From Desulfovibrio sp. ZJ369 (GTDB lineage: Bacteria > Desulfobacterota > Desulfovibrionia > Desulfovibrionales > Desulfovibrionaceae): 64,000 nt of DNA. This document shows positions 32,660 through 54,567 of the stretch, piece after piece (the first letter of the stretch is position 1; every line of letters begins with the position of its first letter). The notes beneath the pieces were generated by a model. That model searched no databases. It worked only from the letters and a program-made list of their open reading frames with translations, and was not told the origin of the DNA. A program made the position numbers and the translations under genes. Location: NCBI RefSeq assembly GCF_011039085.1, contig NZ_JAAKEI010000007.1:1-64000 (forward strand), read 5' to 3'.

Positions 32660-34078
32660 TCACGCCGCTTGCGGCTCGGCCTCCTCTTCAAAGGGCGGCG
32701 GCGGCCGCCAACGCCAGAACAAGGCCAGAAGAGGCAGCAGACCGGCCAGCTCCGCGGCTTCACGCGGCAGCGCAAGGCCGACGCCCCACCATAAAGCCAG
32801 GCTTGCGCCCGCCGCGCCCAGCATCAGCGCCCACTGCCCCAGGCTCATGGGTCTGGCCGCCCACTGAAAAAAACTGACTGTGAGAATGGCCACCCAAACC
32901 TTGGTGACGGTCAGGGAGAGCGCGGCGCCTTCAAGGGGCATGGAAGGAATGAGCGTTATGCAGCAGATGAGGTTCACGGCCAGGCCGCTGAGATAAAAAC
33001 AGAGCAGAAGTTTTTGCCGACGCATGCCAATCATGGCGTAGGCGGCCAGATTGTGCAAAAAAGCCGTGGCAAGGCAGGGCGTGAGCAACTGTTGGGCCGT
33101 GACCGCGCTTGCGTAATTGGGCCCGTAAATCAACGGCAGAAAGCGATCGCTCTCCACGCAGATCAAAAAAATGATCGGCAGGGAGGCGGCCCACAGCGAT
33201 CGGGCCGTCTGCCCGGCCAGACGGCGGAAGATTTCGCGATCCTGTTGCCAGAACCGGGCCAGCAGGGGAAAGATGACCTTGCCGAGCAGGGCGCTGGAAA
33301 CAAGCACCGAGAGGCCTTCCACGGTTTCCCAGGCCACGCTGTAGCCGCCCACGGCGGCATCCCCGCCGTATTGCTTCAGAAAAAAGACGTTGAGTTTGTT
33401 GTAAAACATGGCGCAGGCGGCCATGCAGGTAAAGATCAGGCCGCTTTTCATCTGCCGCGCCAGATCGAGCATGCCCGCAAGCCCTATGCCCGCAAGGGGG
33501 TTGCGCCTCAGAGCGGCGAGGGCAAGGATGATGCACAGCAAGGATTCCACGGGCTTGTACAAGGCAATAAAAATGGGCGGGGCGTTGAGCAGGACGCAGA
33601 CAATGCCGTAGCCGATGCCGATCAGCGAGGACGGCACGCGGATGCGCATTTCCACATCCTGGCGGCCTCTGGCCTGGCAAAGCGCGAAAAAGGAATCGCT
33701 GACCCCGTCAAGACCCAGGCCCGCGGCAATGCAGAGCACGATCAGGCGCAGCTCTGGCGTATAGCCCTGCCAGCCGGTGATCAGCCAGGTGACGCCGAGC
33801 GCAGTCAGCAAAATGGCCAGCTTGAGCCAGGTCACTTCCCCGAGCAGCGCGCGCGGGCGGCTCTCGCGCCGGGCAAAGGTGGAGAGCAGAAAATCGTTAA
33901 GGCCCACATCGGCAATGGTTTTTACCAGATACCCGTACGACAGGGCCAGCATGATCTGGCCCAGCATGTCTTTGCTGTGGCGGGCCAGCAGAATGGTGAA
34001 GATGGTCCAGGAAAGATCGCGCGTCCACTGTGCGCCCAGCACATAGCCCAGCCGCCGGGGAATGCTTTTCAGCTTCAT
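32660..34078 (-). CDS. Wzx-like polysaccharide/lipid-linked oligosaccharide flippase
   Basis: A 472-residue polytopic protein (about 12-14 helices) of the MOP superfamily. The N-terminus (LGYVLGAQWTRDLSWTIFTILLARH), the long hydrophobic repeats, FYNKLNVFFLKQYGGDAAVGGYSVAWETVEG and FLPLIYGPNYASA are typical of O-antigen/polysaccharide flippases, which move undecaprenyl- or lipid-linked glycans to the periplasmic face. The C-terminus is proline/glutamate-rich. It is the last gene of a four-gene leftward operon, starting 9 bp after the adaptor gene. Its company of glycosyltransferases across the divergent promoter suggests that the cargo is their product. Confidence 0.88.
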   Translation of the reverse strand: MKLKSIPRRLGYVLGAQWTRDLSWTIFTILLARHSKDMLGQIMLALSYGYLVKTIADVGLNDFLLSTFARRESRPRALLGEVTWLKLAILLTALGVTWLITGWQGYTPELRLIVLCIAAGLGLDGVSDSFFALCQARGRQDVEMRIRVPSSLIGIGYGIVCVLLNAPPIFIALYKPVESLLCIILALAALRRNPLAGIGLAGMLDLARQMKSGLIFTCMAACAMFYNKLNVFFLKQYGGDAAVGGYSVAWETVEGLSVLVSSALLGKVIFPLLARFWQQDREIFRRLAGQTARSLWAASLPIIFLICVESDRFLPLIYGPNYASAVTAQQLLTPCLATAFLHNLAAYAMIGMRRQKLLLCFYLSGLAVNLICCITLIPSMPLEGAALSLTVTKVWVAILTVSFFQWAARPMSLGQWALMLGAAGASLALWWGVGLALPREAAELAGLLPLLALFWRWRPPPPFEEEAEPQAA

Positions 34079-34087
34079 GGAGGCGGC

Positions 34088-35017
34088 TTACCTGCTCCCG
34101 CCAAACCGCACCACAGCCTTGAAACCGGGCTTCAGCTCAAGATCGGGATTCGGCACAGTCAGCTCCACAGTATAATAGGAGGGATTGGCCACGTTCATAT
34201 CCGTGGAGACCCAGGAGATCTCAGCAACTGTGGCCGTAAATTTCTTGTTCTGCAGGGAGGGGATTTCCACCTCGGCAGTGTCGCCCACTTTGATGCCGCT
34301 GACTTCGGCCTCATAGACCGGCACCTGGATCAGCACAGGATTGAGCTGGCCCACACGGATGGGCATGCTGCCCGCGGCCAGCGTGGCGCCCGCGTTCAAG
34401 GTGGCGTCCAGGGAAAGCACATAGCCCTTGATCGGCGAGGTCAGCACCAGCGTCGGCGGCAGTTGCTCGCCCTCAACGATTGTGACGCCGTAGTACCTTT
34501 CCAGTTCCTTAAGCCGCGCGGCGAAATTGCTTTCCGTCTTCCGGATGGTGATCCGCTGCAGCTCAATGCGCTGCTTCAGGGAAGCCACATCCTCTTCCAG
34601 GCGGGCCAGGGCCTGTCTGGAGCCCAGGCCGGAGGCGACCAGCTGGCGGGCCTTGTTGCGCTGGGCCGTGGTTTCGGCCAGACGCCGCTCAAAATCCAGC
34701 ACCTGTCCTTTGAGTTGCTCGGTGCCCGCGCCGGTGGTCACTTCGCGCTGCAGCACGCGCTCGGCTTCTTCCTGCAAATGGTAGCGCAGCAGGGGCGAAC
34801 CCTGCTCCACCGCGTCGCCGGCCCTGACCAGCACCTCGTCCACCACGGCATTAAAGGGAATGGGCACCGCGCGGGTGACGGTGGTGACCACCTTGCCGGT
34901 AAGAATCGTGGATGTGCCTTCAGCGGCGGCCGCAGGGCCTGAAAGCTGAAGCAGCAAAGCAAGACAAAGTGCCGTCCGGAAGACGGCGGAGAGGGAAAAC
35001 GCGGGGGCGGACCACAT
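34088..35017 (-). CDS. HlyD/RND-type periplasmic adaptor protein
   Basis: A 309-residue membrane-fusion protein with an N-terminal signal (LALLLQLSGPAAAAEG). The barrel-sandwich start VVTTVTRAVPIPFNAVVDEVLVRAGDAVEQGSPL is the lipoyl half. A coiled-coil hairpin spans about residues 90-180 (RRLAETTAQRNKARQL..., RLEEDVASLKQRIEL). The second half-barrel and beta-barrel follow (SPIKGYVLSLDATLNAGATL, KVGDTAEVEIP). Such adaptors bridge an inner-membrane transporter to a TolC channel. The start at 35017 overlaps the stop of the TolC-like gene (TGATG). No ABC, RND or MFS pump gene is adjacent; the only transporter in the operon is the flippase. Confidence 0.88.
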   Translation of the reverse strand: MWSAPAFSLSAVFRTALCLALLLQLSGPAAAAEGTSTILTGKVVTTVTRAVPIPFNAVVDEVLVRAGDAVEQGSPLLRYHLQEEAERVLQREVTTGAGTEQLKGQVLDFERRLAETTAQRNKARQLVASGLGSRQALARLEEDVASLKQRIELQRITIRKTESNFAARLKELERYYGVTIVEGEQLPPTLVLTSPIKGYVLSLDATLNAGATLAAGSMPIRVGQLNPVLIQVPVYEAEVSGIKVGDTAEVEIPSLQNKKFTATVAEISWVSTDMNVANPSYYTVELTVPNPDLELKPGFKAVVRFGGSR

Positions 35018-36483
35018 CACATGAACTCCTTGGCGGGCAACCCGAGGAAGCGCTCCTGCAAGAGATTGGCGACGTACATCCATTCCAGATTCGCGAGTTT
35101 GTATTCCATTTCCGCCTCAATATAGGCAATCCTGGCTTTGACCATTTCTTCCTGGCGGCTGGCCAGCACCGGCAGTTGCTCCGTGCCCTCGGTAAAGGCG
35201 ATATGGGCTTCCTTGTACTGGAGCTCTGCGGTATCGAAGCGGGTCCTGGCCAGCTTGAGCTGGTTTTCGGCCAGGGCCACACGCTGCTCGGCCTGCAGCC
35301 AGGTGTTGGAGTAGGCGCTGCGCTTGCGGGCCATTTCATGAAAAGCCTGGGCCTTTTGCATGCGCGCGGTCTGCACGCCGCGGTAGCGACGGCCCCAATC
35401 CAGCAGCGGAAAATCAAAATTCAGATGCAAAAACGTGTCTTCGCTGCCGCTGACCGGCTGATACTGCCCGGCCGGGGGATTATTATTGATCTGGATGGAC
35501 ATGTCGGGAATATACTGGGCCCAGGCCACCATAATATTAAAGTCCCCGAGCTTGATCTGGGCGCGCAGCAGAAGTTCGTCCTCGCCTGTGGGCCAGCGTT
35601 CCTCCCAGCGCAGCTTATGGCCGTCAAAGCCGGTCAGGATGCCATCCGCGCTGGCCGTATCCACATTCAGGCGCTGCTGGGGCTCCACCCCGGCCAGAAT
35701 TTTCAGCTGCGTGCGCTGCATCACTTCTTCCATGCCGGTTTTTTCCACCATAAGCTTTATTTCGCGCTCGTGCTGACTGGCCAGATTCAGCGAAACACCC
35801 TGGCGGCCTTCCACGGATTCCACCTGCTTCCAGTACTGCACCAGTTCCTTGCCCACAGGCAAAAGCTCTTTCTGGGCCGCTACGATTTTTTGCTGGGCCT
35901 GGAGCTTGAGATAGGCCTGGGCGATTTTGTAAATGGCCTCGCCTACGGCTTTGCGGTGCGCGGCAATGGCCAGGTTGACCATGATTTTCTGCACCTGATG
36001 TTCAAAATAGGTGGCCACGGGATTGGGGAAGGCCGCGTAAAAACCCACACGGAGCTTGGTCCGGCCGTAATCGCCCGGGGTATCCTTATTATCCATGTTA
36101 TAGACAGTAAGGTTGTTGGATACCTGGAGGCTCATGCGGGGCTCGGGCAGATACTTCCAAATCGCGTCGGTCAGGGCCAGGCGTTTGATTTCCAGATCCA
36201 CGGCGCTGTTGACCAGCAGGGGCGATTGCTGGATGGTCAGAAAGACGCAATCCTCATAGCTGAAGCTTTTGTCCGGATCATAGAGATTGGGCACAGCGGC
36301 TTCCAGTTTGGCCTTATTTTCCACGGGAATGCCGGGCGCTTCTTCCAGCCAGTGTTTGGCCGGAAGTTCGGGCGATTTGAGACCGGCTTTATTGGAAGCA
36401 CAGGCGGAAAAGAAAAAAGTCAGAAAAATCAGCGCCAGAAAAAGCGGACGCGCGGAAAGCGCGATTCGTGCAAAATGCGGCAT
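35017..36483 (-). CDS. TolC-family outer-membrane efflux lipoprotein
   Basis: A 488-residue protein with a signal peptide and lipobox FFSAC (cysteine near residue 28), then the long alpha-helical repeats of the OEP/TolC family: the pair around YEDCVFLTIQQSPLLVNS and KAVGEAIYKIAQAYLKLQAQQK in the first half, and FDFPLLDWGRRYRGVQTARMQKAQAF plus QAEQRVALAENQLKLARTRFDTAELQY in the second. It would form the outer-membrane tunnel of the export system with the adaptor. It starts 51 bp after the large synthase gene, implying one transcript. Confidence 0.88.
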   Translation of the reverse strand: MPHFARIALSARPLFLALIFLTFFFSACASNKAGLKSPELPAKHWLEEAPGIPVENKAKLEAAVPNLYDPDKSFSYEDCVFLTIQQSPLLVNSAVDLEIKRLALTDAIWKYLPEPRMSLQVSNNLTVYNMDNKDTPGDYGRTKLRVGFYAAFPNPVATYFEHQVQKIMVNLAIAAHRKAVGEAIYKIAQAYLKLQAQQKIVAAQKELLPVGKELVQYWKQVESVEGRQGVSLNLASQHEREIKLMVEKTGMEEVMQRTQLKILAGVEPQQRLNVDTASADGILTGFDGHKLRWEERWPTGEDELLLRAQIKLGDFNIMVAWAQYIPDMSIQINNNPPAGQYQPVSGSEDTFLHLNFDFPLLDWGRRYRGVQTARMQKAQAFHEMARKRSAYSNTWLQAEQRVALAENQLKLARTRFDTAELQYKEAHIAFTEGTEQLPVLASRQEEMVKARIAYIEAEMEYKLANLEWMYVANLLQERFLGLPAKEFM

Positions 36484-36534
36484 CTGTCGACCCTTTGGAC
36501 TCGCGCCAGGCGGCTGCGCATTGTCAAGGTTGCT

Positions 36535-39500
36535 TTACTGCTGCTCGTCTGCGCCCGTTGGGGGCGCCGCCTCCTGCCGATCAAATTCCAGATGATGCAA
36601 AGTTACAAGGACGCGGCCACGGGCATCCTCCGCCTGAGCGTCGAAGCGCAGCAATTTGCCGTCAGCCCACGACCGCCGCAATTGCAGACGACAGGGCCCC
36701 TGCCCGCCGCGCTCCGCGCCAAAGCGGATAAAACCCGCCGCGTTCAACCGCCAATGGCGCAACGCCTCAGCCGGGCTTGCGGCACTGCCCTCCAGGGCAA
36801 TGGCCAGCGACGCTGCCTGCACCAGGCCCTCCACCATTTGCAGAACCTTAGTATAGCTCCAATTGCTTTCGGGGGCAATGGGCTGTTCCGGCGCGGACAA
36901 GGTCGCAAGGTATATGCCGCCGGGCAAAGCCGAAAAACCTGAAAGAATCCGCCAAGGCTCGCCCATGCCCAGCGCGTCGTAGACAGTGTTTATCCTTTCA
37001 ACGCCCTGCCCGGAACAATCCATTTTCGATGCGGGCCAAAGCGGCGGCACCTCGCCGGGAGCCGCGGCCAGCAAAACCATGCCTGAGCTTACCGCCGCAT
37101 ACTGCCCGGTATGGCGGCCGTTGGCCGTCAAACGGCGTACGGAAAGATCCGCCCGGCACATGCGGGTCATGACCTGATCCTGCGCAAGCCAGGGGAGCGC
37201 CTCCACGATCAGGCGACATTCACGGGTCACCCCCGGCGGCAGGAGCGGGAGTTCATGAAAGCGCACATCGGAAAGGCCTGTGACTGCCAACCAGGGCACG
37301 AGCAGCCGGGAACCCTCCACCAGTGCCTGAAGAGCACGGCTCACCGGCAGCCGGGGCAGGGAACCGCCGCCCGTTTTTCCGCCTCGGCCGCCATGCGCCG
37401 CAAGGGCGGGATCCGCAAAGCGGGAGAACTGGCAGGCTCCCTGAAACAGCGTTGCCGTGGGCCTGAACCGGGGCTGAGGGTCAGGAAACACCAGGGGAGA
37501 AAATTCCGGGCGTTCCAGCATGAGCTGGGCCCGCGGCGGCCGATCCGGGCAAAAATCGCTTTCGCGCGCCCAGATCACCCGTTCGGCCGAACCGCGCAGC
37601 ACTTCACGCGCCAGCATGTCGCCGAGTTCATTGAGTCCCGCAGGCAGGCCGCCATCCAGAAGGCGAATGGCGCGGGCGGCAAAGCCGCCTTCCAGGGCCA
37701 GGCTCGCGAGGCGCTTTTCCAGCGGCCCGTCGCAGGCAAAGGCAGCCTGATCGGGCGCCTGCACGCTGAGAACGCAGGCATAGCGCAGGCCATGCGCCGT
37801 GGCGGCCCGCAGGCAGTCTTCCAGCAAAAGCGCGGCGCTCTGCGGCGCATCCGCGTTGTGGGGCACGAACAGCACGCCGTCCACGCGCCCCTCCTGCCCG
37901 GCCAGAGTCTGCACGATCGCGCGCAGGCTTTCGGCATCAGGCCTGCTCTCAATGCCGCAAGAGAGCGGCGCCAGGCGCGCCCCGGCCCTGGCCAGAGGCG
38001 CGCAGGCATCCAGCAGCCCCTGAGGAACGGCCAGCGTGCAGCCCAGGGGGGCAATCCCGCTCAGCAAGCCCGGCAGCAGGGTCGGATGGAACACAAAAAG
38101 CGCCAGCACGTCCCCGCGCCGGAGGGGCAGGCCCTGGCCGCACGGATCCAGCGCAAGCGGACGCAGAGAGGCGCAAAAATCCCGCTCAGCTTCCGGGCAG
38201 CCGCCCTGGGGCACGCCTTCGCCGCCGGGGACAGGCGCAAAGCGGCACAGGGGCGAAGACGCGCGGGCCCGGACAGGGCGCGCCGGGCTGGCGGCGGTCG
38301 CGCGCTTTTTGCCCTGGGCCGGGCTGCGTTCCGCTGATCCAAGAATGCGTGTCAGATCCCCGACAGTCGCCACCTGGAGCAGATCTTCAAAATTGATCGC
38401 CAAACCAAGGCGTTGTTCCACTTCCTGAATAATCAAGGGGAAACGGCTGGAACGCAAGGCCAGGTCATACCGCAAATCCATTTCCGGGCGGAGCTCTTCA
38501 GCCGGGCGACCGCTGGCCTGGGCCAGCACGTCCAGCACAATGCGCAAATGCGGCGGAGCGGCGCCTGTGTCGGAAGAGGCAGCGGGCGCAGCCTGAGCCG
38601 CGCCTTCCGCTGGCCTTGCTTCGTTGCGGCAGGACGTGTCGGCCGGGTCGAGCGGCTCTTCGTCCAGAGGCCGGAGACCGCCATACGGCGCAACCGGCGC
38701 GGCATGGCCCCCAGCGGACGCCTCCCCCGGCTGCGGCGTGCGCAAATGCGCCCGCAGAGCCGCGCGCGGCAGGTGGCCCAGAGCGTACAAACGGGCGCAA
38801 GACCGGCGCAGGCCTTCGGTTTCCCTGCCCTTGCGCCCGGCGGAGAGGCAAAGCCCGCGCGGCTCAATATCGTTCACCAGGCCGCAGAGCGTGTCCTGGG
38901 GGCCCAGTTCCAGGAAATGGCGGATGCCGTGCCGATCCCACATGGCGCGCACGCATTCCGTCCAGCGCACGGAATTTTCATCCAGATCCGCGATATAGCG
39001 GCAGATGGAGGGCTGATCGTCGGGGTAAAAGCCGGTGGTAATATTGCTGAGCAGGGGCAGACGCGGCGCGTGCATCTCCAGCGCGTTCAGCCGCCGCAGG
39101 GAAAGATCGCGCAGAACCCGCATGCTCGGATGGTGAAACGCCAGGCTGACATTGAGCATGATGGCCGGAATACGCCGCTTGCGCAGGCTTTTGCGGGCTT
39201 CCAGCAGCGCCTCGCGAGGACCGCTGAGGATAAACTGGCTGGGCGTATTGTAATTGGAAACATAGAGCGCGGGCCAGGACGCGCGTATTGCATCAATGAT
39301 CCCGGCATCGGCGTGCACGGCCATCATGCCGGTCTCGCGCGTGGCTTTGGCCTCCAGCTCACCCACATGCACGGCGCGGGTGTCCAGAATATACCAGGCC
39401 ACTTCCGGCTCGTATACGCCGGCAAAGCACAGCGCGATCAGCTCGCCCAGGCTGTGCCCGCTCATCAGGGCAGGCTTGAGCCCCAGGGAGACAAACTGGC

Positions 39501-40554
39501 TCCACTGGGCGTATTCCAGCAGAAAGACATAGGGCGACTGCCAGCGGGAGAGGCTGATTTTTTCCAGATCAGTCTCATCCATGAGCGCCAGCACATCCCA
39601 GTCGGCCACGGCGGCGATGCGATCCATGGCGGCCCTGGCCGCGGGAAAATTGTCGTACAATTCCCGGCCCATGCCCGGCCAGACCGCGCCCATCCCGGAG
39701 CACATGACTGCCAGCGGCGGCGCGGCCGCAGCCGGAGCGAGCCATATCCCCCGATCCTCAAGATCGCGAACCGCATCCTGAGCCGGCGTGGCCGGAAGCG
39801 CAAGGAGTTCCTGCCGCCACAGCGGATTGACGCTTGCCAGCCGCCATTCCAGCCCTGCCTGACGCAATTGCGCGTACCGTACGCCGTCGGCAACGAGCTC
39901 TTCCCGGTCCTGGCCGTCTTCCTCATACCTGGAGGCGTCCACGGCGCACGACAAGGCCGCGGATTCCCGCCCGGCACACGCGGCGGGCGCGCAAGCGGCC
40001 CGGTCCGGTTGGTCCGGTTGGTCCGCCTGGTCCGGGGCCGGGCGCAGGCGCAGAAATTCGCATATCAGCCCGGCCGCGGCGGCAGGCGCGCCCGCGGCGG
40101 CAAAGGCGCGGCGGCAGACCAGCAGCGCCACCACGGCGCAACGTCGCGCGGCGAGCTCGCGGGCCGCTGCCCCCAGCAAGGCGGGGCTGAACCGCGCCGC
40201 AATCACGCGCGGGACGGCGCAAAGGCCGGAGGCCGCCTCGCACGCCAGCTCCCGCGCCAGCATGTGCCCCAGTTCCCGGGCCTGTTGCCCCACGGGCCGA
40301 CCTGAAAATTCGGGAACAAAGCATGACAAGGCCTCGCGCTCCACGCACAGCCAGAGGGCCGTCGGCTGCGCCGTGCCGGCCATGCCCCCGGCGTCGGCCG
40401 CACAGGCCTGCCGTTCGCGCAGCCATTCCCGCCACTGCGCCGCAAGAACGGCTGCCGATGCCTGCGCGGCAGGCAAAGAGGCACGGCGGAAGACTTCCAC
40501 CGTGCATGCGGCAAGGAGGCCGGACGCAGAGCCGGATGTGTCGTAGTTGGACAT
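36535..40554 (-). CDS. Polyketide-synthase-like multidomain protein (AT, ACP, degenerate KR-like, DH-like; no evident KS)
   Basis: A 1339-residue protein. Residues 1-270 are alanine-rich and unassigned; a decayed ketosynthase-like region as in PfaB is possible. Residues 280-580 are an acyltransferase: MCSGMGAVWPGMGREL, catalytic S368 in SGHSLGE, and the histidine in AFHHPSM. An acyl-carrier-like domain lies at about 668-740 (LRYDLALRSSRFPLI, likely phosphopantetheine Ser702). Residues 785-1000 resemble a reductase fold without a clear NADP motif. The last third (from PVSRALQALVEGSRLLVPWL) resembles a double-hotdog dehydratase. No ketosynthase CHH triad or thioesterase is visible. It probably loads and tailors an acyl chain for the divergent alpha-oxoamine synthase. 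It has its own promoter at 40630-40658 and leads the operon with the TolC, HlyD and flippase genes. Confidence 0.75.
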   Translation of the reverse strand: MSNYDTSGSASGLLAACTVEVFRRASLPAAQASAAVLAAQWREWLRERQACAADAGGMAGTAQPTALWLCVEREALSCFVPEFSGRPVGQQARELGHMLARELACEAASGLCAVPRVIAARFSPALLGAAARELAARRCAVVALLVCRRAFAAAGAPAAAAGLICEFLRLRPAPDQADQPDQPDRAACAPAACAGRESAALSCAVDASRYEEDGQDREELVADGVRYAQLRQAGLEWRLASVNPLWRQELLALPATPAQDAVRDLEDRGIWLAPAAAAPPLAVMCSGMGAVWPGMGRELYDNFPAARAAMDRIAAVADWDVLALMDETDLEKISLSRWQSPYVFLLEYAQWSQFVSLGLKPALMSGHSLGELIALCFAGVYEPEVAWYILDTRAVHVGELEAKATRETGMMAVHADAGIIDAIRASWPALYVSNYNTPSQFILSGPREALLEARKSLRKRRIPAIMLNVSLAFHHPSMRVLRDLSLRRLNALEMHAPRLPLLSNITTGFYPDDQPSICRYIADLDENSVRWTECVRAMWDRHGIRHFLELGPQDTLCGLVNDIEPRGLCLSAGRKGRETEGLRRSCARLYALGHLPRAALRAHLRTPQPGEASAGGHAAPVAPYGGLRPLDEEPLDPADTSCRNEARPAEGAAQAAPAASSDTGAAPPHLRIVLDVLAQASGRPAEELRPEMDLRYDLALRSSRFPLIIQEVEQRLGLAINFEDLLQVATVGDLTRILGSAERSPAQGKKRATAASPARPVRARASSPLCRFAPVPGGEGVPQGGCPEAERDFCASLRPLALDPCGQGLPLRRGDVLALFVFHPTLLPGLLSGIAPLGCTLAVPQGLLDACAPLARAGARLAPLSCGIESRPDAESLRAIVQTLAGQEGRVDGVLFVPHNADAPQSAALLLEDCLRAATAHGLRYACVLSVQAPDQAAFACDGPLEKRLASLALEGGFAARAIRLLDGGLPAGLNELGDMLAREVLRGSAERVIWARESDFCPDRPPRAQLMLERPEFSPLVFPDPQPRFRPTATLFQGACQFSRFADPALAAHGGRGGKTGGGSLPRLPVSRALQALVEGSRLLVPWLAVTGLSDVRFHELPLLPPGVTRECRLIVEALPWLAQDQVMTRMCRADLSVRRLTANGRHTGQYAAVSSGMVLLAAAPGEVPPLWPASKMDCSGQGVERINTVYDALGMGEPWRILSGFSALPGGIYLATLSAPEQPIAPESNWSYTKVLQMVEGLVQAASLAIALEGSAASPAEALRHWRLNAAGFIRFGAERGGQGPCRLQLRRSWADGKLLRFDAQAEDARGRVLVTLHHLEFDRQEAAPPTGADEQQ
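40002..40037. repeat. Four tandem 9-bp units inside the synthase gene
   Basis: GGTCCGGTT twice, then GGTCCGCCT and GGTCCGGGG. They encode the in-frame D-Q-P / D-Q-A tract near residue 175. Because the unit is a multiple of three, slippage would change length without a frameshift. Confidence 0.8.
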
Positions 40555-40629
40555 AAATCGCTTGTTGCCTGCGCGCGACGCCGCGCCCGGACGACCCCGA
40601 CGCGGCGGATGCGGCTTGATTGGGCAAAA

Positions 40630-40658
40630 ATGCTAGGGCATATCCAGGGCATTGTCCA
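40630..40658 (-). promoter_or_regulatory. Predicted promoter of the synthase-export operon
   Basis: TGGACA and TAGCAT on the minus strand are 17 bp apart, about 76 bp upstream of the synthase start. It lies back to back with the plus-strand promoter 30 bp away. Confidence 0.55.
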
Positions 40659-40688
40659 GCCATAACAGCGCGGGCGCGCATTCCGGAC

Positions 40689-40717
40689 TTGCCATGCAAC
40701 CCGGCTTTGGCTATGCT
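40689..40717 (+). promoter_or_regulatory. Predicted promoter of the alpha-oxoamine synthase operon
   Basis: TTGCCA and TATGCT are separated by 17 bp, about 92 bp upstream of the start. The two divergent promoters suggest shared control. Confidence 0.6.
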
Positions 40718-40809
40718 GAATCGTTACAAAGCTGTGACCGGAATACTCGGCGTCCCTACACGCCGCTCAGAGCGGCGGCAGATCCAGGATAACCCCGTGA
40801 GGATAAGGC

Positions 40810-42150
40810 ATGAAGAACAACCATTCCTGTCAGGCCGGCCCCGCGGCGGCGGAACAATCCGCCGTTGCGCATGAAAGCTGCGCTTCCGGCTTTACCCGTA
40901 TGCGTTCCAAGCTCTCCTTTGATCGGCTGGTGGAAATGGGCGCCAAAATGGGGCTGGAAAACCCGCTTTTTGTTTGCCACGATCGGGCCGCCAAGGCTAC
41001 GACTCTGGTCAGTGGCAAAGAATACCTCAATTTTTCCACCTATGACTATCTTGGCATCAACGCCCACCCGGAGATTACCGAAGCCGTGACCAAAGCGGCG
41101 AGCGTGTTCGGCACCTCGGCGGGCGCAAGCCGCCTGGTGGGGGGCGAGCGCCCGCCTCATCGCGAGCTGGAACAGGCCATGGCCGATCTGTACGAGGTGG
41201 AAGACTGCATCGCCTATGTCAGCGGGCATGCCACCAATGTTTCCACCCTGGGCTTTTTATTCGGCCCGCGCGACGCCATCTTTCATGACGGCCTGGCCCA
41301 CAACTCTCTGGTGCAGGGTTCGCGGCTTTCGGGAGCCGCCCGGTATTCCTACGCGCACAACGATTGCGACGCCCTGGAAGAGATGCTCAAAACCCGCAGA
41401 AGCGAGCACAAGCGGGCAGTGATCGTCACCGAAGGGCTGTTCAGCATGGACGGGAACATCCCGGATCTGCCCAGAATTATCGAACTCAAGAAAAAATACG
41501 ACTGCATGCTGCTGGTCGATGAAGCCCATTCCCTCGGCGTGCTGGGCAAGACCGGGCGCGGCGTGCGCGAGTATTACGGCATCAAACCCACAGACGTGGA
41601 TATGTGGATGAGCACGCTCTCCAAGGCCATGTGCGGTTGTGGCGGTTTTATTGCCGGCAGCCGCGAGCTGGTGGAATTTCTCAAGTACGGCTCGCCGGGC
41701 TTTGTGTTCAGCGTTGGCATGCCGCCGGTTATTGCCGCGGCCTGCAGCAAGGCCCTGGAAATCATGCTGCGCGAACCGCAGCGCGTGCATAAGCTCCAGC
41801 AAATTACCCGTTTCTTTCTTGAGTACGCCAAAAGTAAAGGCCTGGACACAGGCGCGGCCCAAGGCTACGCCATTGTGCCCGTCATGGTCGGGGATTCGAT
41901 GGTTGCGGGCTTTTTGTCCGCGGCTTTGTTCAAGCGCGGCATCTATGTCATGCCCGTCACCTTCCCGGCGGTCAAGGAAGGCACGGCGCGGCTGCGTTTC
42001 TTCCTTTCCGCGGCCCATCAGGAAGAGCACATCCGCAAGACCCTGGACGCCGTAGCGGAAGAACTTCCAAAAGCCCAGGCCATTGTGGAAAAATATCAGC
42101 GTGAGCATCAGGACGAGGCCCAGACAGACGAGAAGTCATGCATGAAATGA
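40810..42150 (+). CDS. Alpha-oxoamine synthase family PLP enzyme (AONS/SPT/KBL type)
   Basis: A 446-residue PLP-dependent enzyme that would condense an acyl thioester with an amino acid under decarboxylation. Motifs: FSTYDYLGINAHP, GTSAGASRLVGGERPPHRELE, VDEAHSLGVLG (Asp237 to PLP nitrogen), and the Schiff-base lysine K272 in MSTLSKAMCGCGGF. An N-terminal extension of about 30 residues and a polar C-terminal tail exceed BioF and KBL, closer to serine palmitoyltransferase-like and CqsA-like members. AGGATAAGG precedes the ATG. Divergent from the AT-ACP synthase, which could hand over its acyl-ACP. BioF or glycine C-acetyltransferase is the main alternative, but no biotin or threonine genes are nearby. 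Confidence 0.85.
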   Translation: MKNNHSCQAGPAAAEQSAVAHESCASGFTRMRSKLSFDRLVEMGAKMGLENPLFVCHDRAAKATTLVSGKEYLNFSTYDYLGINAHPEITEAVTKAASVFGTSAGASRLVGGERPPHRELEQAMADLYEVEDCIAYVSGHATNVSTLGFLFGPRDAIFHDGLAHNSLVQGSRLSGAARYSYAHNDCDALEEMLKTRRSEHKRAVIVTEGLFSMDGNIPDLPRIIELKKKYDCMLLVDEAHSLGVLGKTGRGVREYYGIKPTDVDMWMSTLSKAMCGCGGFIAGSRELVEFLKYGSPGFVFSVGMPPVIAAACSKALEIMLREPQRVHKLQQITRFFLEYAKSKGLDTGAAQGYAIVPVMVGDSMVAGFLSAALFKRGIYVMPVTFPAVKEGTARLRFFLSAAHQEEHIRKTLDAVAEELPKAQAIVEKYQREHQDEAQTDEKSCMK

Positions 42151-42155
42151 CTTCC

Positions 42156-42255
42156 AGCGCATAGTACTTGTGCAACGCCCGCTCCGGCGCGTAACGGCGC
42201 AAGGAAATTTTGCCGTTACGCGCCGGAGCGAGCGTTTTAAAAGCACTATGCTCTA
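42156..42255. repeat. Large inverted repeat with mosaic-repeat termini, copy 10
   Basis: CGCTCCGGCGCGTAACGGC (42180-42198) pairs perfectly with 42212-42230. The outer part, AGCGCATAGTACTTG against AAAGCACTATGCTCT, pairs imperfectly. The right half equals the module ending the 5371-5673 copy. It separates the oxoamine synthase from the glycosyltransferase genes and might act as a partial terminator between them. Confidence 0.85.
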
Positions 42256-42396
42256 GTGCAGACCGCCCTGAGACATCAGGCACGCGGCAGATCTGTTTTT
42301 CTCGCGGCAGCGCGCGCCCGGCTGTCGCCGTTGCCGTCTGTTTCAGCCGGATCGCTTTGTCTGTCCGGCTTTTTTTCTTTTGTGCCGGAGAATGCC

Positions 42397-43773
42397 ATGT
42401 CCTTTCCCGATACGGCCCCAGCGAGGCCTTCCTCTCTTTCCGGGCCCCGGAACGATCCTGCGGGCGCGTGCCGCCCCATGCCCTCCATCGCCTATGTGCT
42501 TCTTTGGTTCCCCCTCGCCTCCGAGACGTTCATATTCCGCGAAGTCGTCCAGCTGCTGCGCCTGGGGCTCTCCATTCGTGTTTATACCTTATACGGCAAA
42601 GCCCTGAAAGGATGCAGCCGGGAAATGCAGGCTTTTCCCGGCCCGGTGCGGCGCATGGGCGTGCGGGCCTTTTTCAGGCTCTGGGGCGCTTTTTTCCGGG
42701 CACTGCGCCACGATCCCGGCACGGTTCTGCAACTCATGCGCGAGGGCTTTTTCCGGCGCATGCGCAATCTGGAATCCCTGGGCGAGAACCTCTGGTGCTT
42801 CCTGGCCGGTTTTTTGCTGGCCGAGCAATGCCAGGCCGACGGCATCACGCTGATCCACGCCGCCTGGGCCAACGGCCCGGCCACCGCGGCCTGGGTAGCC
42901 TCGCGCCTCACAGGCATTCCCTTTGCCTTTACGGGCCGCGCCGGCGACATTTATCCTCAGGACGGCATTCTGCGCGAAAAATCGCGCGACGCGCTCTTCA
43001 TCCGAACCAACAATCTGGCCAATGTGCGCTGGCTGCAAAGCTTTTGCGCGCCGGATCAGCGCCATAAAGTGCGGCATATCTACAACTGCCTGACGTTCTC
43101 CCAAAGCGGGAAATGCAGGCTCAACATGCAAAAGCCCTACCGCCTGCTGGCCGTGGGCCGTTTTGCCCGCACCAAAGGCTTTCCGGAGTTGCTGACGGCC
43201 ATGGCCCGGCTGCAGCGCGAACAGGTTCCCGTGCGCCTCACCCTGGTGGGCGACGGGCATTGGCGGCGCAAGCTCACCGCCTTGCGCAAACGCCTGCGCC
43301 TGACGGAAGTGGTGGATATGCCGGGTTTCGTGCCCCACGATCAGTTGCGCGGCTTCATGCAAAATCATGACGTGCTGATCGTGCCCAGCGTGGTGCATCG
43401 GAACGGCGATCGCGACGGCATTCCCAATGTGATCATGGAGGCTCTCTCTCACTGCATGCCGGTGGTGGCCACGGACGTTTGCGGCATTTCGGAAGTGATC
43501 AGGGACGGCGAAACCGGCCTGCTTGTGCCGCAACGGGATCCGCGGGCGCTTGCCCTGGCCGTGCGCCGCATTCTGGAAGACAGGGAGCAGGCCCGGCGCA
43601 TGGCCGAAGCCGGGCATGCGCTGGTGCAGCAGATGTTTGACGCCAGGACCAATATCACGGCCTTGCGCGATCTCTACGCCTCGCAAATGCGGCGCTGGCA
43701 GGCCGAACAAGCGGGAGCAACGGCGGAACCCGCCAAAATGGACGCAGTGCCGGCCGCGGAAGAAAGCCCATGA
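42397..43773 (+). CDS. Glycosyltransferase family 4 (first of two paralogues)
   Basis: A 458-residue GT-B retaining glycosyltransferase. The N-terminal acceptor domain begins IAYVLLWFPLASETFIFREV. The C-terminal nucleotide-sugar domain contains LLAVGRFARTKGFPELLTAM, LTLVGDGHWRRKL, PGFVPHDQL and the E-x7-E region NVIMEALSHCMPVVATDVCG. A start at 42397 with GGAG six bases upstream is preferred over a longer open frame. It overlaps the deacetylase gene by 4 bp (ATGA). It resembles the second glycosyltransferase at 44875 along its length. The sugar donor is unknown. Confidence 0.88.
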   Translation: MSFPDTAPARPSSLSGPRNDPAGACRPMPSIAYVLLWFPLASETFIFREVVQLLRLGLSIRVYTLYGKALKGCSREMQAFPGPVRRMGVRAFFRLWGAFFRALRHDPGTVLQLMREGFFRRMRNLESLGENLWCFLAGFLLAEQCQADGITLIHAAWANGPATAAWVASRLTGIPFAFTGRAGDIYPQDGILREKSRDALFIRTNNLANVRWLQSFCAPDQRHKVRHIYNCLTFSQSGKCRLNMQKPYRLLAVGRFARTKGFPELLTAMARLQREQVPVRLTLVGDGHWRRKLTALRKRLRLTEVVDMPGFVPHDQLRGFMQNHDVLIVPSVVHRNGDRDGIPNVIMEALSHCMPVVATDVCGISEVIRDGETGLLVPQRDPRALALAVRRILEDREQARRMAEAGHALVQQMFDARTNITALRDLYASQMRRWQAEQAGATAEPAKMDAVPAAEESP

Positions 43774-44888
43774 GCACTCCCAGGCCTGAACTCCTGCTGG
43801 CCGCCAGCCTGGACGTGGAAGAAGAAGGGCTCTTCGGGGGCCGCTATAGCCGCCGCAGGCCCAGCGTGACCAACACGGCCCGGCTGGCGCAACTGGAGCC
43901 TTTGTGCGCCGAGGGCCTGCGCCCCACGCTTTTTTGCGCGCACAGCGTGCTGACGGATCCGGCCTCATGCGCGACGCTGGCCCGCCTGCGGGACAGATTC
44001 GGCGCGGAAATCGGCGCGCACCTGCACCATTGGAATACCCCGCCGCTCACCTTGGAAAACCCTGCGCGCAGTGACGCCAGGGCCGGCGCCGCCTGTGCCG
44101 TGGCTGCGCCGCCAGATCCGGCGAAAAACGCCGATGTTGCGGACAAGGTGCCTGCCGCGGGCGTGTCGCTGCCGCTCATGGCGGCCAAGCTCGCCCGACT
44201 GTTCAAAGCGGGCCGGGATTTTCAGAGCGCGCCGCTGACCAGCTTCCGCATGGGTCGCTGGGATCTGCACCGCGCGCACTGGCCGCTGCTGGCTCAGGCG
44301 GGGGTGCTGTGCGATGCCTCGGTGCGGCCCCTGCATTGCGCGGCGCGGCCCCTGCAGGGGCCGGATCATTTCGGCGCGCCGTGTGAGCCGTACTGGGTGC
44401 CCACAGGGGGGAAAAATATTTTTGAAGTGCCGCTGACCGTCACGCCGCTTGTCCGCCCCTTACCGCCCCTGTTGCGGGCCATGCCGGGCAAGGCGGGATC
44501 GGCGGCGCGGGCGGGCCTGAAAACATGGGGAGCTCTGGCCTTGTTGCCGGTCTATCATCCCTTGTGGGCCATGCAGGCCGTGACCCGGCTCTTTGTGGCC
44601 CGCGGCGGCCGCGTGCTTTCGCTGACCTGGCATTCCTCGGAGATGATGCCCGGCGGCGCGCCGCATATCCCCGATGAAGCCGCCGTAACACGGCTGCTGA
44701 CGAAAATCCGGGCCTGGATGACATGGTTGCGCGGCCGCTGGCCTGTGCGCAGCCTGAGCATGCAGGAGCTGCGGCTCGAACTGGGCCCCGGGGCCGCCTG
44801 TCCGCAATCTGAAAAACCCTGCGACTGGACCATCGACACAAAAACAAGGGAAGCGCAAATACAGGAGAATCCGCATGACAGAGCGTAG
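43770..44888 (+). CDS. Polysaccharide deacetylase-like protein
   Basis: A 372-residue NodB-fold protein likely to remove N-acetyl groups from a sugar, or a relative. The catalytic-base strand is AASLDVEEEGLFGG, the metal-histidine segment GAEIGAHLHHWNTPPL, then SFRMGRWDLH and the closing LSLTWHSSEMMPGG. A low-complexity alanine-rich insertion lies around residues 105-130. The pattern is like deacetylases of exopolysaccharide loci. It overlaps both flanking glycosyltransferase genes (4 and 14 bp), indicating a coupled operon. Confidence 0.75.
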   Translation: MSTPRPELLLAASLDVEEEGLFGGRYSRRRPSVTNTARLAQLEPLCAEGLRPTLFCAHSVLTDPASCATLARLRDRFGAEIGAHLHHWNTPPLTLENPARSDARAGAACAVAAPPDPAKNADVADKVPAAGVSLPLMAAKLARLFKAGRDFQSAPLTSFRMGRWDLHRAHWPLLAQAGVLCDASVRPLHCAARPLQGPDHFGAPCEPYWVPTGGKNIFEVPLTVTPLVRPLPPLLRAMPGKAGSAARAGLKTWGALALLPVYHPLWAMQAVTRLFVARGGRVLSLTWHSSEMMPGGAPHIPDEAAVTRLLTKIRAWMTWLRGRWPVRSLSMQELRLELGPGAACPQSEKPCDWTIDTKTREAQIQENPHDRA

Positions 44889-46191
44889 CGTCCCGGCTGC
44901 TTCCACGCCGCTGCCTCCGGGCCTGCCGCATGTGGCCTATGTGCTTTTATGGTACCCGCTGTTCACGCAACCCTTTATCTTCCGCGAGGTCGAAGGCCTC
45001 AAGGCGCGACTGCCCCTGACCGTCTACAGCCTCTATGCCCGCAATTTGCGCCACTGCTCCACGGAAATGCGCGCTGCCGCGCCCGCGGTGCGCGCATTCG
45101 GCAGCAAAGCCTGGCCCCGTTTCACCCTGGAGCTGCTGCGCCAGTTGCTGACCCATCCTGTACGGCTGGGCAGGCTTTTTCGGCGCTGCATGGTGCGGCG
45201 CTGGCGCAGCCTGGAAACCTTCGGCGAAAATCTCTGGGCCTTTTCTGCGGGCGTCTACCTGGGCCGCCTGTGCCGGGAGGACGGCATCGACATGATCCAT
45301 GCCCCGTGGCCGCGCGGCACGGCCACTGCCGCCTGGGTGGCCGCAAGCATCGCGGGCATCCCCTTTTCCACGTCGGCGCGCGGCGACAACCTGGAGCCCG
45401 CGGACCCGGATCTGGGCGACAAACTCCGCGCGGCCCTGTTTGTGCGCGCCAACAACGCCGCGGATCAGGCCCGTATTGAGCACTTTGATCAGGGGCAGGC
45501 AAAAAACAAAACCTATCTTGTTTACAACAGCCTGACGCTGCCCCCGCCGCCTTCCCCTGATAACGAGACCCTGCTGCAACGCCGCCCGGTGCGCCTGCTG
45601 GCTGTGGGGCGCTTTGACGTGACCAAGGGCTTTGACGTCTTGCTCAAGGCCTGCGCCATACTGCGGGAGCGCGGCCTGGACTTCACCCTGACGCTGGCCG
45701 GAGGCGGCGGCACAGCCATGGGCCTCGGTCCGCTGGAAGCCGCTCTGCTCAAGCTGCGCAAGGATCTCGGACTGGAAGAGCGCGTCCGGATGCCCGGACT
45801 TGTTTCGCACAATGAATTGCCGCGCATGCTGCAAGAGCACGATATTTTTGTGGCGCCCTGCGTGGTGCACGCTTCCGGCCGTCGCGACGGCATCCCCAAT
45901 ACCGTGATTGAAGCCCTGGCCTATGGCCTGCCGGTTGTCAGCACCACGGTCAACGCCTTGCCCGAAGTGGTGCGCGACGGCCGGACGGGCCTGACCGTGC
46001 CGCCCAATGATCCCTCGGCTCTGGCCGATGCCGTCATCCGGCTCGCGGAGCATCCCGGCGAGGCGCGCGTCATGGGGCGCAACGGCCATTGTCTGGCCTC
46101 GGAAATGTTCGATCACCAGACCAACAACCAGCGGCTGGCCGAACTCTTCATCAGCCAGTACGCCCGCTGGAGAAAATCATGTGCGGCATAG
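44875..46191 (+). CDS. Glycosyltransferase family 4 (second paralogue)
   Basis: A 438-residue GT-B enzyme with the same architecture as the gene at 42397: VAYVLLWYPLFTQPFIFREVEGL at the N-terminus, then RLLAVGRFDVTKGFDVLL, PGLVSHNELPRML and NTVIEALAYGLPVVSTTVNALPEVV. It differs in the donor-site loop (AGGGGTAMGLG), so it may use another sugar. It overlaps the deacetylase upstream by 14 bp and the amidotransferase downstream by 13 bp. Confidence 0.88.
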   Translation: MTERSVPAASTPLPPGLPHVAYVLLWYPLFTQPFIFREVEGLKARLPLTVYSLYARNLRHCSTEMRAAAPAVRAFGSKAWPRFTLELLRQLLTHPVRLGRLFRRCMVRRWRSLETFGENLWAFSAGVYLGRLCREDGIDMIHAPWPRGTATAAWVAASIAGIPFSTSARGDNLEPADPDLGDKLRAALFVRANNAADQARIEHFDQGQAKNKTYLVYNSLTLPPPPSPDNETLLQRRPVRLLAVGRFDVTKGFDVLLKACAILRERGLDFTLTLAGGGGTAMGLGPLEAALLKLRKDLGLEERVRMPGLVSHNELPRMLQEHDIFVAPCVVHASGRRDGIPNTVIEALAYGLPVVSTTVNALPEVVRDGRTGLTVPPNDPSALADAVIRLAEHPGEARVMGRNGHCLASEMFDHQTNNQRLAELFISQYARWRKSCAA

Positions 46192-48107
46192 CGGGCATCT
46201 GCCGTCTGGACGGGGAGGCGCTGCCCCCGCAGGCCGGCGCATGGGTCAGGGCCATGACCGATTGCCTGACGCACCGGGGCCCGGACGGCGAAGGGCTGTG
46301 GCAGGCCGGCGCGGTCTGCCTTGGGCACCGGCGTCTTTCGATCATTGATCTGGCGGGCGGAGCCCAGCCCATGCAGGATGCCGATAATACCCTGAGCGTG
46401 ACCTACAACGGCGAAATCTACAATTTCGCCGAACTCAGGGCCGAGCTTCAGAAACTGGGCGCGCGTTTCCGCACGGGCTCCGACACGGAAATCATTCTGG
46501 AAGGCTATCGCATCTGGGGGCCGGAGTGCCTGACGCGCTTTGACGGCATGTTCGCCTTTGCCCTCTGGGATGCGCGGCGTCGGCGTCTGTTCTGCGCGCG
46601 CGACCGCTTCGGCAAAAAACCTTTTTTTTACAGCCTGCAACACGGCCGCCTGCACTTCGCCTCCGAGCTCACGGCCTTGCGCCGCGTGCCGGAACTGACC
46701 TTCAGCGTGGATCCGCAGGCCGTGATGCGCTATCTGGCATATGAGTATGTGCCCACCCCCAACACGATGTACAGCGAGGTTCAAAGCCTGCCGCCCGCGC
46801 ATCTGCTCCTGCTGGAAAAAGGACAGGTTCGCCTGGAACGCTATTGGGACATGCCCGTGCCGGACGAAAGCGACCCCAGAGACGAGCGGGAGCTCTGTGA
46901 GGAACTGAACAGGCTGCTTTCCAGATCTGTGCAACGGCGGATGATCAGCGACGTGCCTCTGGGGGTTTTTCTGTCCGGCGGCATTGATTCCTCCATTGTG
47001 GCCGGGCTCATGGCCCGGCAGTCCGCCACGCCCGTCAAGACCTTTTCCATCGGCTTCACCGAGGCGAGCTACGATGAATCCCGCTTTGCGCGCCTTGCGG
47101 CAAAAGCCTTCGGCACGGATCACCACGAGCGCGTGCTTTCGGCCGGGGAATGCGCGGATGAGCTGCCCGGCATTGTCAGCCGCATGGACGTGCCCATGGC
47201 CGACGCCTCGGTGGCCCCCACCTGGCTGCTTTCGGGCGTGGCCCGCGAGCACGTCACCGTTGCCCTGGGCGGGGACGGCGCGGACGAGCTCTGGGCCGGG
47301 TACGAGCATTACATCGCTTTCAAGACGGCTGAATGGTACAACGCCCTGCCCGCCTTGGCCCGGCGCGGGATCATCGAACCCCTGGCCCGGCATCTGCCCG
47401 CATCGGCCGGATACATTAATCCGCGCCTGGCCGTGGCCACCTTTTTGCGGGGGGCTCACGCTCCGGCCTGGCAGCGGGTGCAAACCATGCTCACGGCCTT
47501 TACCCCGGAGATGCAGCGTGACATCCTTGCGCCGGAATGGCTTGCGGCCGCGGCTGAAGGCGCGGATTTTCTCCGGTCCGAGCGCCTTTTTGCCCCCACC
47601 CGGAAGCAATACGAGCACTGGCAGCCGGAAAGCGCCGCGTCCCCGCTGGCCCGCGCCTTCCACGTCTATGTGCGCCAATTCATGCTGGACGACATTCTGG
47701 TCAAGGTGGATCGCTGCTCCATGCTGCATTCTCTGGAAGTGCGCGCCCCCTTTCTGGACAAGGACGTGGCGGAATTTGTCGCGCGCCTGCCGCTGCGCTG
47801 CAAGTTGCGGGGATTCAAACGCAAATGGCTGCTCAAAAAGGCTTTTGCCGATCTCTTGCCGCCGGGGATCCTGCACCGCAACAAACGCGGCTTTCAGATT
47901 CCCGTGGCTCAATGGCTGCGCGGCCGCCTGCGCCCGCTCATGGAAGATCTGCTCAGCGCCGAACATCTGCGCAGGCAGGGCATCTTTCATCCTCAAGCCG
48001 TGCGCGCGCTCATGGACGCGCATATCTCAGGCCGGGCGGATCTGCGCAAGCCGCTGTGGACATTGCTGGTTTTTCAGCTCTGGCAGCAGGCAAGAAAGAA
48101 TGCCTGA
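46179..48107 (+). CDS. asnB: Asparagine synthetase B-type glutamine amidotransferase
   Basis: A 642-residue protein with an N-terminal class II glutaminase (nucleophile Cys2 in MCGIAGI; RRLSIIDLAGGAQPM, YNGEIYNF) and a C-terminal ATP-pyrophosphatase synthetase domain (LSGGIDSSIVAGLMA, ALGGDGADELWAGYEHY). Both active sites are intact. The start at 46179 is fixed by the need for Cys2. In exopolysaccharide and exosortase loci, proteins of this type amidate sugar carboxylates instead of making asparagine. Overlap with the glycosyltransferase gene favours that role here. It is the last gene of the plus-strand operon. Confidence 0.9.
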   Translation: MCGIAGICRLDGEALPPQAGAWVRAMTDCLTHRGPDGEGLWQAGAVCLGHRRLSIIDLAGGAQPMQDADNTLSVTYNGEIYNFAELRAELQKLGARFRTGSDTEIILEGYRIWGPECLTRFDGMFAFALWDARRRRLFCARDRFGKKPFFYSLQHGRLHFASELTALRRVPELTFSVDPQAVMRYLAYEYVPTPNTMYSEVQSLPPAHLLLLEKGQVRLERYWDMPVPDESDPRDERELCEELNRLLSRSVQRRMISDVPLGVFLSGGIDSSIVAGLMARQSATPVKTFSIGFTEASYDESRFARLAAKAFGTDHHERVLSAGECADELPGIVSRMDVPMADASVAPTWLLSGVAREHVTVALGGDGADELWAGYEHYIAFKTAEWYNALPALARRGIIEPLARHLPASAGYINPRLAVATFLRGAHAPAWQRVQTMLTAFTPEMQRDILAPEWLAAAAEGADFLRSERLFAPTRKQYEHWQPESAASPLARAFHVYVRQFMLDDILVKVDRCSMLHSLEVRAPFLDKDVAEFVARLPLRCKLRGFKRKWLLKKAFADLLPPGILHRNKRGFQIPVAQWLRGRLRPLMEDLLSAEHLRRQGIFHPQAVRALMDAHISGRADLRKPLWTLLVFQLWQQARKNA

Positions 48108-51608: not shown

Positions 51609-52134
51609 CGTTGCGCACATGCTGCGGCCAGGCGTAGGGAATGCCCGGATCATCAACGGGCAAACGCTCGCTTTCAGCCGGATCATGGGGGATATCCGCG
51701 CAGTTGCAGATCAGCGCCGGGGCCTTGCCCAACGCCGTGAAGCCGTACCAGACGCCCACCGGAATGCGCAGCAGGCCGTAGCAGTCAGGTCTGCCCAGGT
51801 TCAGTTCGCACAGCCTGCCCTGTGTGATTGAGGCGGGCCGGTCGTCGTAGAGCACGATTTTGAGCAGGCCGCAGGGCACGGCAAAATGCTGCGTCTGGCG
51901 GCTGTGTCGCTTCCAGGCCTTTATTGCGCCGGGCAGCACTTCCGAAAAATAAATCTCGCCAAAGCCCGCGTGAAAATCCGGAAGCAGGGGCGAATCCGGC
52001 CGCAGCATGTGCAGCACAGGGCCGCCGTGAGCGGGAATTACCTTCAGGGGCTGAAAGAGCGCGCCCGCCACGCCCACGTCCCGCGCCGCCATATCCGATG
52101 CCGGATCCCTGCCGTATGCACGCGTACCGCCCAT
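51595..52134 (-). CDS. RmlC-like cupin, sugar nucleotide 3,5-epimerase family
   Basis: A 179-residue cupin of the dTDP-4-dehydrorhamnose 3,5-epimerase family. Motifs FGEIYFSEVLPGAIKAWKRH, QTQHFAVPCGLLKIVLYDD and RIPVGVWYGFTALG match RmlC. Linkage to CDP-glucose dehydratase suggests that it epimerises CDP-4-keto-6-deoxyglucose and not the dTDP sugar. The start overlaps the dehydratase stop (TGATG). The last codons (NEGIL and TGA) lie inside the palindromic repeat, so the native C-terminus may have been changed by it. Confidence 0.82.
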   Translation of the reverse strand: MGGTRAYGRDPASDMAARDVGVAGALFQPLKVIPAHGGPVLHMLRPDSPLLPDFHAGFGEIYFSEVLPGAIKAWKRHSRQTQHFAVPCGLLKIVLYDDRPASITQGRLCELNLGRPDCYGLLRIPVGVWYGFTALGKAPALICNCADIPHDPAESERLPVDDPGIPYAWPQHVRNEGIL

Positions 52135-53252: not shown

Positions 53253-53392
53253 GGCTATTCCTTCTTGTGGAAAGGAGAGGATGCTGTTTTTTCTTGTTCC
53301 GGCGATGAAGGCGGTTGCTTTCACTGGGCCGGAGCGGCGCGCGTACCGCGCTGCCTGCTGTTTCTCGTGAGGATTCTCACTGACACGGCTCT

Positions 53393-54465: not shown

Positions 54466-54567
54466 AGGCCCTCCCGGTGTCGCTTTGAAACCTGCCCCGC
54501 AGGACTCGGCTACCTGTAGCAGAAGCCGGGGCGGAAAAAAAGCCCCGGCGCCCCCCGGCAACGGGCT

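Follow-up and report, generated by a model that had tools for sequence, protein, structure and literature searches.

What do the nine adjoining genes at positions 32660–48107 of a 64,000-nucleotide stretch of Desulfovibrio sp. ZJ369 (contig NZ_JAAKEI010000007.1; the whole stretch is called here the window) make, and how would the product reach the cell surface? An initial annotation took them for a system that makes and exports an amino-lipid-anchored glycoconjugate. All nine genes were present in the order and on the strands claimed, as judged from open reading frame (ORF) positions and family matches, and we consider it likely that they make up the greater part of a glycolipid pathway of the ceramide type (sphingolipid-like), whose genes in this genus are distributed over as many as three places on the chromosome. 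The core of the earlier idea, that one gene set makes and exports an amino-lipid glycoconjugate, was strengthened by a CerS/CerR gene pair elsewhere in the genome, and its completeness at one locus had to be given up on account of the same two enzymes.

Candidate enzymes of a proposed ceramide-type pathway

In the ceramide pathway of Caulobacter crescentus, AasR loads the carrier protein AcpR, Spt condenses acyl-AcpR with serine, CerS N-acylates and CerR reduces the product (PMC11324152, PMC11087976). To judge from sequence, every one of these roles has a candidate here, namely an acyltransferase (AT) for AasR, the acyl carrier protein (ACP) domain fused to it for AcpR, an alpha-oxoamine synthase (AOS) of the RkpG type for Spt, and homologues of CerS and CerR. 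The left half-operon of the locus encodes the AT-ACP protein, TolC, HlyD and Wzx, and the right one the AOS, a GT4 glycosyltransferase, a deacetylase, another GT4 and an AsnB-type amidotransferase; the two diverge from a 255-bp intergenic region (40555–40809) that is presumed to be regulatory. The AT would load an acyl unit onto the ACP, and the AOS would condense the acyl-ACP with an amino acid, with loss of CO2, to an alpha-amino ketone. CerS would then attach the N-linked acyl chain and CerR would reduce the ketone, the two GT4 enzymes would assemble a short glycan, to be modified by the deacetylase and the amidotransferase, and the glycolipid would be flipped by Wzx and taken to the cell surface by HlyD-TolC. 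Any chain length, amino acid or sugar given for this product is one that we infer. Family scans of the locus proteins found no Wzy, Wzz, initiating phosphoglycosyl transferase or Kps export genes, and the absence of the first three together with a very conserved Wzx suggests that one constant glycolipid is the more likely product than a variable polymer.

The conservation of the system was followed in 72 distinct genomes of the genus, which are related and so not independent samples. The AT-ACP family was found in 71 of the 72, an AOS orthologue (at least 68% identity) in 70 and a CerS-like gene in 71; the genomes without a piece were G316 (89% complete), G026 (80%) and G003 (63%). The reading frames of the locus are conserved as proteins in about 70 genus genomes and are not chance, and the system as a whole is real, genus-wide and non-random. 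Synteny had been proposed as a check, and its outcome was divided: the second half lies away from the first in at least 13 genus genomes, so that physical linkage is broken there, but it is mostly still an AOS-GT-deacetylase-GT-AsnB cluster (L109, L111, L114, L116–L121), and both halves are kept save in incomplete genomes. In almost every locus examined, the genes for TolC, HlyD and Wzx adjoin that for the AT-ACP protein. Functional independence of the halves is ruled out by their co-occurrence in about 70 of the 72 genomes. Furthermore, the complete 1.41-Mb genome G257 contains all nine genes and CerS-CerR, and most of these were also found in the 1.6-Mb genome G035. In one genome of the genus (G006), both the AT-ACP gene and the AOS half occur twice (L043, L057).

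Bacterial sphingolipids shape host immunity and envelopes and have mostly been studied in Bacteroidetes and Alphaproteobacteria, and Desulfovibrio are common sulfate reducers of the gut. If the proposed pathway is true, Desulfovibrio would make glycosylated ceramide-like lipids of a class of its own, with genes kept down to 1.4-Mb genomes and an assembly route that uses a decayed polyketide synthase (PKS) in place of the usual acyl-ACP synthetase and carrier. Lipid discovery would also gain a direct genetic handle, the seemingly orphan CerS/CerR pair of these genomes would be accounted for, and one would have to ask whether a flippase can function within a TolC-type exporter.

The AT-ACP protein and the alpha-oxoamine synthase

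The 1339-aa AT-ACP protein (36535–40554, minus strand) had been described as a ketosynthase-less AT-ACP-dehydratase synthase. The AT (residues 284–552, 38899–39705; Pfam Acyl_transf_1) and the ACP (residues 673–736, 38347–38538; Pfam PP-binding) were found and the lack of a ketosynthase (KS) was borne out, whereas an active synthase was not, the protein being a derivative with a dead ketoreductase (KR) and a dead dehydratase (DH). No Pfam match to KS, KR or DH was obtained in the protein, and none to KS in the locus. Its C-terminal part is confidently predicted to consist of a Rossmann-like domain and a PKS-dehydratase double hotdog, both detectable only through profile alignment and predicted fold and both devoid of their catalytic motifs. 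The Rossmann-like domain is the KR remnant (about residues 795–1001, 37552–38172), which has lost the NADPH as well as the catalytic motifs and is deleted as a whole in one sub-clade (L053, L056, L059). The DH-like region (about residues 1036–1326, 36577–37449; AlphaFold pLDDT 85) matched PKS dehydratases in Foldseek, for example GphF DH1 at 1.5e-14; an active DH is ruled out, as the catalytic His of the N-terminal hotdog is not conserved. In an alignment of 29 homologues, by contrast with these losses, the AT residues Ser368 (in GHSLGE), Arg393 and His474 and the phosphopantetheine-bearing Ser702 of the ACP, which lies within the signature DLRxDLxLRSSxFP, were invariant. The loss of the KS and of the KR and DH motifs, taken with the invariance of the AT and ACP residues, argues that the protein is most likely a loading-and-carrier protein and not a chain builder. 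Residues 1–205 form an N-terminal extension that is alignable in near relatives only and has no family match.

The origin of this protein was indicated by its longer relatives. A profile made from the 29 homologues of the genus and near-genus (A1) found proteins of 2,431–2,616 aa in the genera g33, g42 and g17, with E-values of 1e-97 to 1e-112 in the AT-ACP region, and the three that were scanned had the order enoyl reductase (ER; NMO/FabK-like), KS, AT, ACP, KR, DH. In hhalign the window family was collinear with the C-terminal part of these long synthases over 1,011 columns (E 2.4e-98), and the unusual ACP signature DLRxDLxxRSSRxP is common to both. Compared with the long relatives, the window family has lost the ER, the KS, the catalytic and NADPH motifs of the KR and the His of the DH. 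A KS-containing relative was also found in G589 (L152), which belongs to a different family of Desulfobacterota, and is 43% identical to one of the long synthases; a gene like those for phosphopantetheinyl transferases (PPTase) lies 3′ of the long synthase in L133. When genome contigs were scanned for the AT-ACP protein, the sole match was a weak one to an ACP of Saprospiraceae.

The AOS (40810–42150, plus strand) retained the catalytic Lys that binds pyridoxal phosphate, the Asp and the stacking His in an active-site alignment, and scored under the cut-off of all NCBIfam AOS families. A maximum likelihood tree placed the window clade (support 100/100) within the RkpG clade and left outside it BioF and KBL of E. 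coli as well as the BioF-like fusion of ZJ369; the tree has long outgroup branches and contains no Spt sequence, and the claim is therefore limited to membership of the RkpG clade and not of BioF or KBL. Grouping with true BioF or KBL, which had been set beforehand as a result that would refute the proposed system, was thus not seen. Identity with BioF or KBL is ruled out by the tree and the NCBIfam cut-offs, and that with CqsA by score only. The AOS is about 48–64% identical to RkpG-type AOS and 31–33% to the AOS of cerS loci, and its scores against the Spt NCBIfam models are far under cut-off, which speaks against the Spt type of the ceramide pathway. Its nearest relatives outside the window clade lie directly 3′ of type I PKSs of about 2,500 aa in nearly all loci read, several of them with capsule-export-type genes close by; the named homologues are from an rkp-1-like locus of S. 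meliloti, from Pseudomonas and Caballeronia and from a PKS fusion of Planktothrix. The ZJ369 genome itself has a second locus of the RkpA/RkpG type (L070, G000:C22:12000–31900), with a 2,476-aa PKS of the order KS-AT-DH-methyltransferase-ER-KR-ACP, an AOS 50% identical to that of the window and a gene for polysaccharide export accompanied by ABC-transporter-like ones.

The detached CerS-CerR pair

The CerS-like and CerR-like genes of ZJ369 lie side by side outside the window (G000:C97:40257–42469; L160:9207–11470). The CerS homologue occupies G000:C97:40257–41366, and the CerR homologue is the adjacent short-chain dehydrogenase/reductase, 29–33% identical to CerR of the cerS loci; both names are given on gene context and homology to plasmid and Rubrobacter loci, not to the Caulobacter proteins. 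The two proteins matched those of Pseudomonas, Klebsiella and Rubrobacter loci over their full length (E 1e-25 to 1e-69). The homologues on Pseudomonas and Klebsiella plasmids lie in loci with a fatty acyl-AMP ligase, an NAD-epimerase, an ACP and an AOS, which is the published gene content of bacterial ceramide loci, aasR, cerR, acpR, spt and cerS (PMC11324152, PMC11087976), and in Rubrobacter the genes form an AOS-CerS-CerR run. No Pfam or NCBIfam family matched the CerS-like protein when the L133 homologue was tested. CerS and CerR were adjacent in the regions read from the genus, g39 and g16; the CerS of L166 was missed by the ORF caller.

The association of this pair with the AT-ACP family extends beyond the genus. 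The close CerS subgroup (at least 38% identity) was present in all 22 genomes of the bacterial family that carry the AT-ACP protein and in 4 of the 177 that do not, a contrast (Fisher 1e-25, not corrected for kinship) spread over five genera. A more distant CerS occurs in 19 family genomes of other genera at a constant 4.6–4.8 kb from an AOS, and this spacing suggests that ordinary sphingolipid operons are present in Desulfovibrionaceae too.

In the KS-containing relatives, the synthase is followed by a CerS-like protein of about 373 aa and an NAD-epimerase-type reductase; in G589 the CerS-like gene lies 5′ of the synthase. Because relatives of GT1 (the first GT4 gene of the locus), of Wzx and the deacetylase, and in some of AsnB, accompany synthase, CerS and CerR in these other genera, the link between lipid and glycan looks old. 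An ancestral Pfa-like PKS-CerS-CerR system probably lost its KS and recruited the AOS of a capsule-lipid system of the RkpA/RkpG type. Loci L152 (G589), L153 and L155 (G284, G263) have the KS-containing synthase, CerS, CerR, deacetylase, GT1 and Wzx nearby, and apparently represent an undescribed PKS-ceramide-glycan system that is present in a second family of the phylum too.

Glycan genes, export and competing explanations

The glycan genes lie on the plus strand. GT1 (42256–43773; PF00534, 1.8e-37) is EpsE/WcaL-like and probably starts near 42397 instead of 42256, and the second GT4 gene spans 44875–46191 (PF13692, 6e-35). The start of the AsnB-type glutamine amidotransferase (46179–48107; Asn_synthase and GATase_7) was moved from 46089 to 46179, where the protein begins with MCGIAG and has the Cys nucleophile at its N-terminus. 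Its closest NCBIfam model is the XrtA/PEP-CTERM exopolysaccharide amidotransferase TIGR03108, at 607 bits, which is below the cut-off of 817. The divergent deacetylase (43770–44888) matched no NCBIfam model and, up to E = 10, no Pfam family either. Its AlphaFold model (pLDDT 76) matched polysaccharide deacetylases (3rxz at 7e-8, HP0310, ArnD), and the Asp/His/Arg/His metal-site and catalytic motifs were invariant in 12 homologues; predicted fold and Asp/His metal-site motifs are those of the NodB/CE4 class.

The export genes lie on the minus strand and encode a Wzx-type flippase of the MOP family (32660–34078; PF13440, Polysacc_synt_3, 1.1e-15), a HlyD/RND-type periplasmic adaptor with a signal peptide (34088–35017; PF16576, HlyD_D23, 2.4e-16) and a TolC-like outer-membrane channel (35017–36483; PF02321, OEP, 1e-22) with the lipobox FFSAC at its N-terminus. 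From its start sequence, the HlyD start is probably at 35017, not 35083, with an ATG that overlaps the TolC stop. No RND, ABC or MFS inner-membrane pump adjoins HlyD-TolC, whose sole inner-membrane neighbour is Wzx, and the Wzx proteins of the genus and its near relatives are 67–88% identical (alignment A4), which is high for such a protein. We infer export by Wzx with HlyD-TolC from this conserved gene run. In G080, a relative with a KS-containing synthase, an ABC transporter stands with TolC and HlyD instead, and in G063 (genus g16) Wzx and HlyD are separated by an additional gene (L134:2737–3714).

Several points weigh against a ceramide-type glycolipid made and exported in this way. To our knowledge there is no precedent for Wzx acting with HlyD-TolC, and a widespread Wzx-HlyD-TolC triad was unsupported, as the Wzx homologues read outside the family have other neighbours, including in some cases glycan genes such as GT1, and no HlyD-TolC. 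CerS-CerR is unlinked to the locus in the genus and could serve another product; the glycosyltransferase, deacetylase and amidotransferase genes resemble exopolysaccharide genes; and no lipid or phenotype data for these bacteria were found in the open-access literature. The kinship of the 72 genomes and the composition of the AOS tree count on the same side. In addition, Arg393 of the AT is the retained malonyl-binding Arg of FabD/MAT enzymes, and the unit loaded may therefore be malonyl and not a long chain; this would mean a short base, or elongation by a separate KS. A detailed scheme in which the KS-less AT-ACP protein passes an acyl (possibly malonyl) unit directly to the RkpG-type AOS, CerS/CerR finish the lipid and Wzx replaces the pump in a surface exporter is tentative, and we hold it to be doubtful in all its parts together. 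PigH is known to condense malonyl-ACP decarboxylatively with an amino acid, and the AOS might likewise join malonyl, loaded by the AT from malonyl-CoA, to an amino acid as a short amino ketone, which CerS would N-acylate to a single-chain lipid. The invariant Arg393, the missing KS and the presence of a CerS homologue agree with this variant; sequence cannot settle AT specificity, and the RkpG-clade relatives are served by multi-domain PKSs, for which longer chains are expected, and we regard it as improbable.

The genes could instead be an exopolysaccharide or lipopolysaccharide (LPS)-modification locus. The GT4s, deacetylase, AsnB and Wzx would then build a polysaccharide or core sugar, and the AT-ACP protein and AOS would supply a small amino-acyl decoration or a lipid carrier, as proposed for the rkp-1 region, which is thought to produce a lipid carrier for capsule secretion (PMC4881576, PMC3908369). 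The EpsE-, WcaL- and XrtA-type best matches, the placement of the AOS and the occurrence of ancestral relatives among exopolysaccharide-type genes fit such a function. It is made unlikely by the lack of Wzy, Wzz, phosphoglycosyl transferase and Kps export genes in the locus, by a genus-wide conservation untypical of capsule genes and by the retention of the genes in a 1.4-Mb genome; if that genome is Ca. D. trichonymphae, the Trichonympha symbiont, it belongs to bacteria that have lost several LPS genes (PMC7608387). It also leaves the co-occurrence of CerS-CerR unexplained. The dead KR and DH and the deletion of the KR remnant could further mean that the AT-ACP protein is decaying or a mere scaffold, with the AOS alone using acyl-CoA or acyl-ACP from fatty acid synthesis; the invariance of the AT Ser, His and Arg and the ACP Ser over 29 sequences and the retention of the gene in the 1.4-Mb genome speak against this, and we give it hardly any credence.

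The ceramide-type pathway favoured here was also compared with described systems. It shares with that of Caulobacter an ACP-linked acyl donor, an AOS, CerS, an NAD-epimerase-type CerR and then headgroup and transport genes, but it differs in that its ACP is part of a PKS remnant and fused to an AT, its AOS belongs to the RkpG clade, its genes are spread over separate loci and include two GT4s, a deacetylase and an amidotransferase, and Wzx-HlyD-TolC stands in place of LptC2/F2/G2. No AasR or free-standing AcpR was found in the locus, to which the AasR search was confined. With the rkp-1/wcb systems (RkpA/WcbR PKS, RkpG AOS, RkpH, RkpJ) it shares the AOS clade (46.5% identity to the S. meliloti homologue), a PKS-type protein adjoining the AOS and a surface-glycan context; the window locus has no full-length RkpA/WcbR-type PKS, RkpH, RkpJ or KpsMTE, and its PKS-like protein is from a Pfa-like family. 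The Pfa-like "secondary lipid" synthases (Shulse and Allen 2011, PMC3098273) have the AT-ACP-KR-DH order in common with it, and the complete relatives have the NMO/FabK-like ER and a PPTase-like neighbour, whereas the window family lost KS and ER and has KR and DH without catalytic motifs. An AsnB-type amidotransferase, here under the TIGR03108 cut-off, a deacetylase and GT4s are common to XrtA/PEP-CTERM exopolysaccharide clusters. The statement of the initial annotation that no described pathway has this set was too strong, because the RkpA/RkpG capsule-lipid systems and the AasR-AcpR-Spt-CerS-CerR pathway offer near precedents for some of its parts. No paper on a Desulfovibrio sphingolipid or such a gene set was found in the titles and abstracts of the open-access literature, and within reach of the literature and database searches made, the carrier protein and the gene combination are undescribed.

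The BioF-like domain of the genome belongs to a frame of 669 aa that is extended at the N-terminus and seems to be a BioW-BioF fusion (L137, G000:C10:68229–69335). Close to the locus, the window contains CDP-glucose dehydratase-like (52134–53324) and sugar nucleotidyltransferase (53701–54573) genes, homologues of which adjoin the detached AOS half, both in L114 and the dehydratase only in L113.

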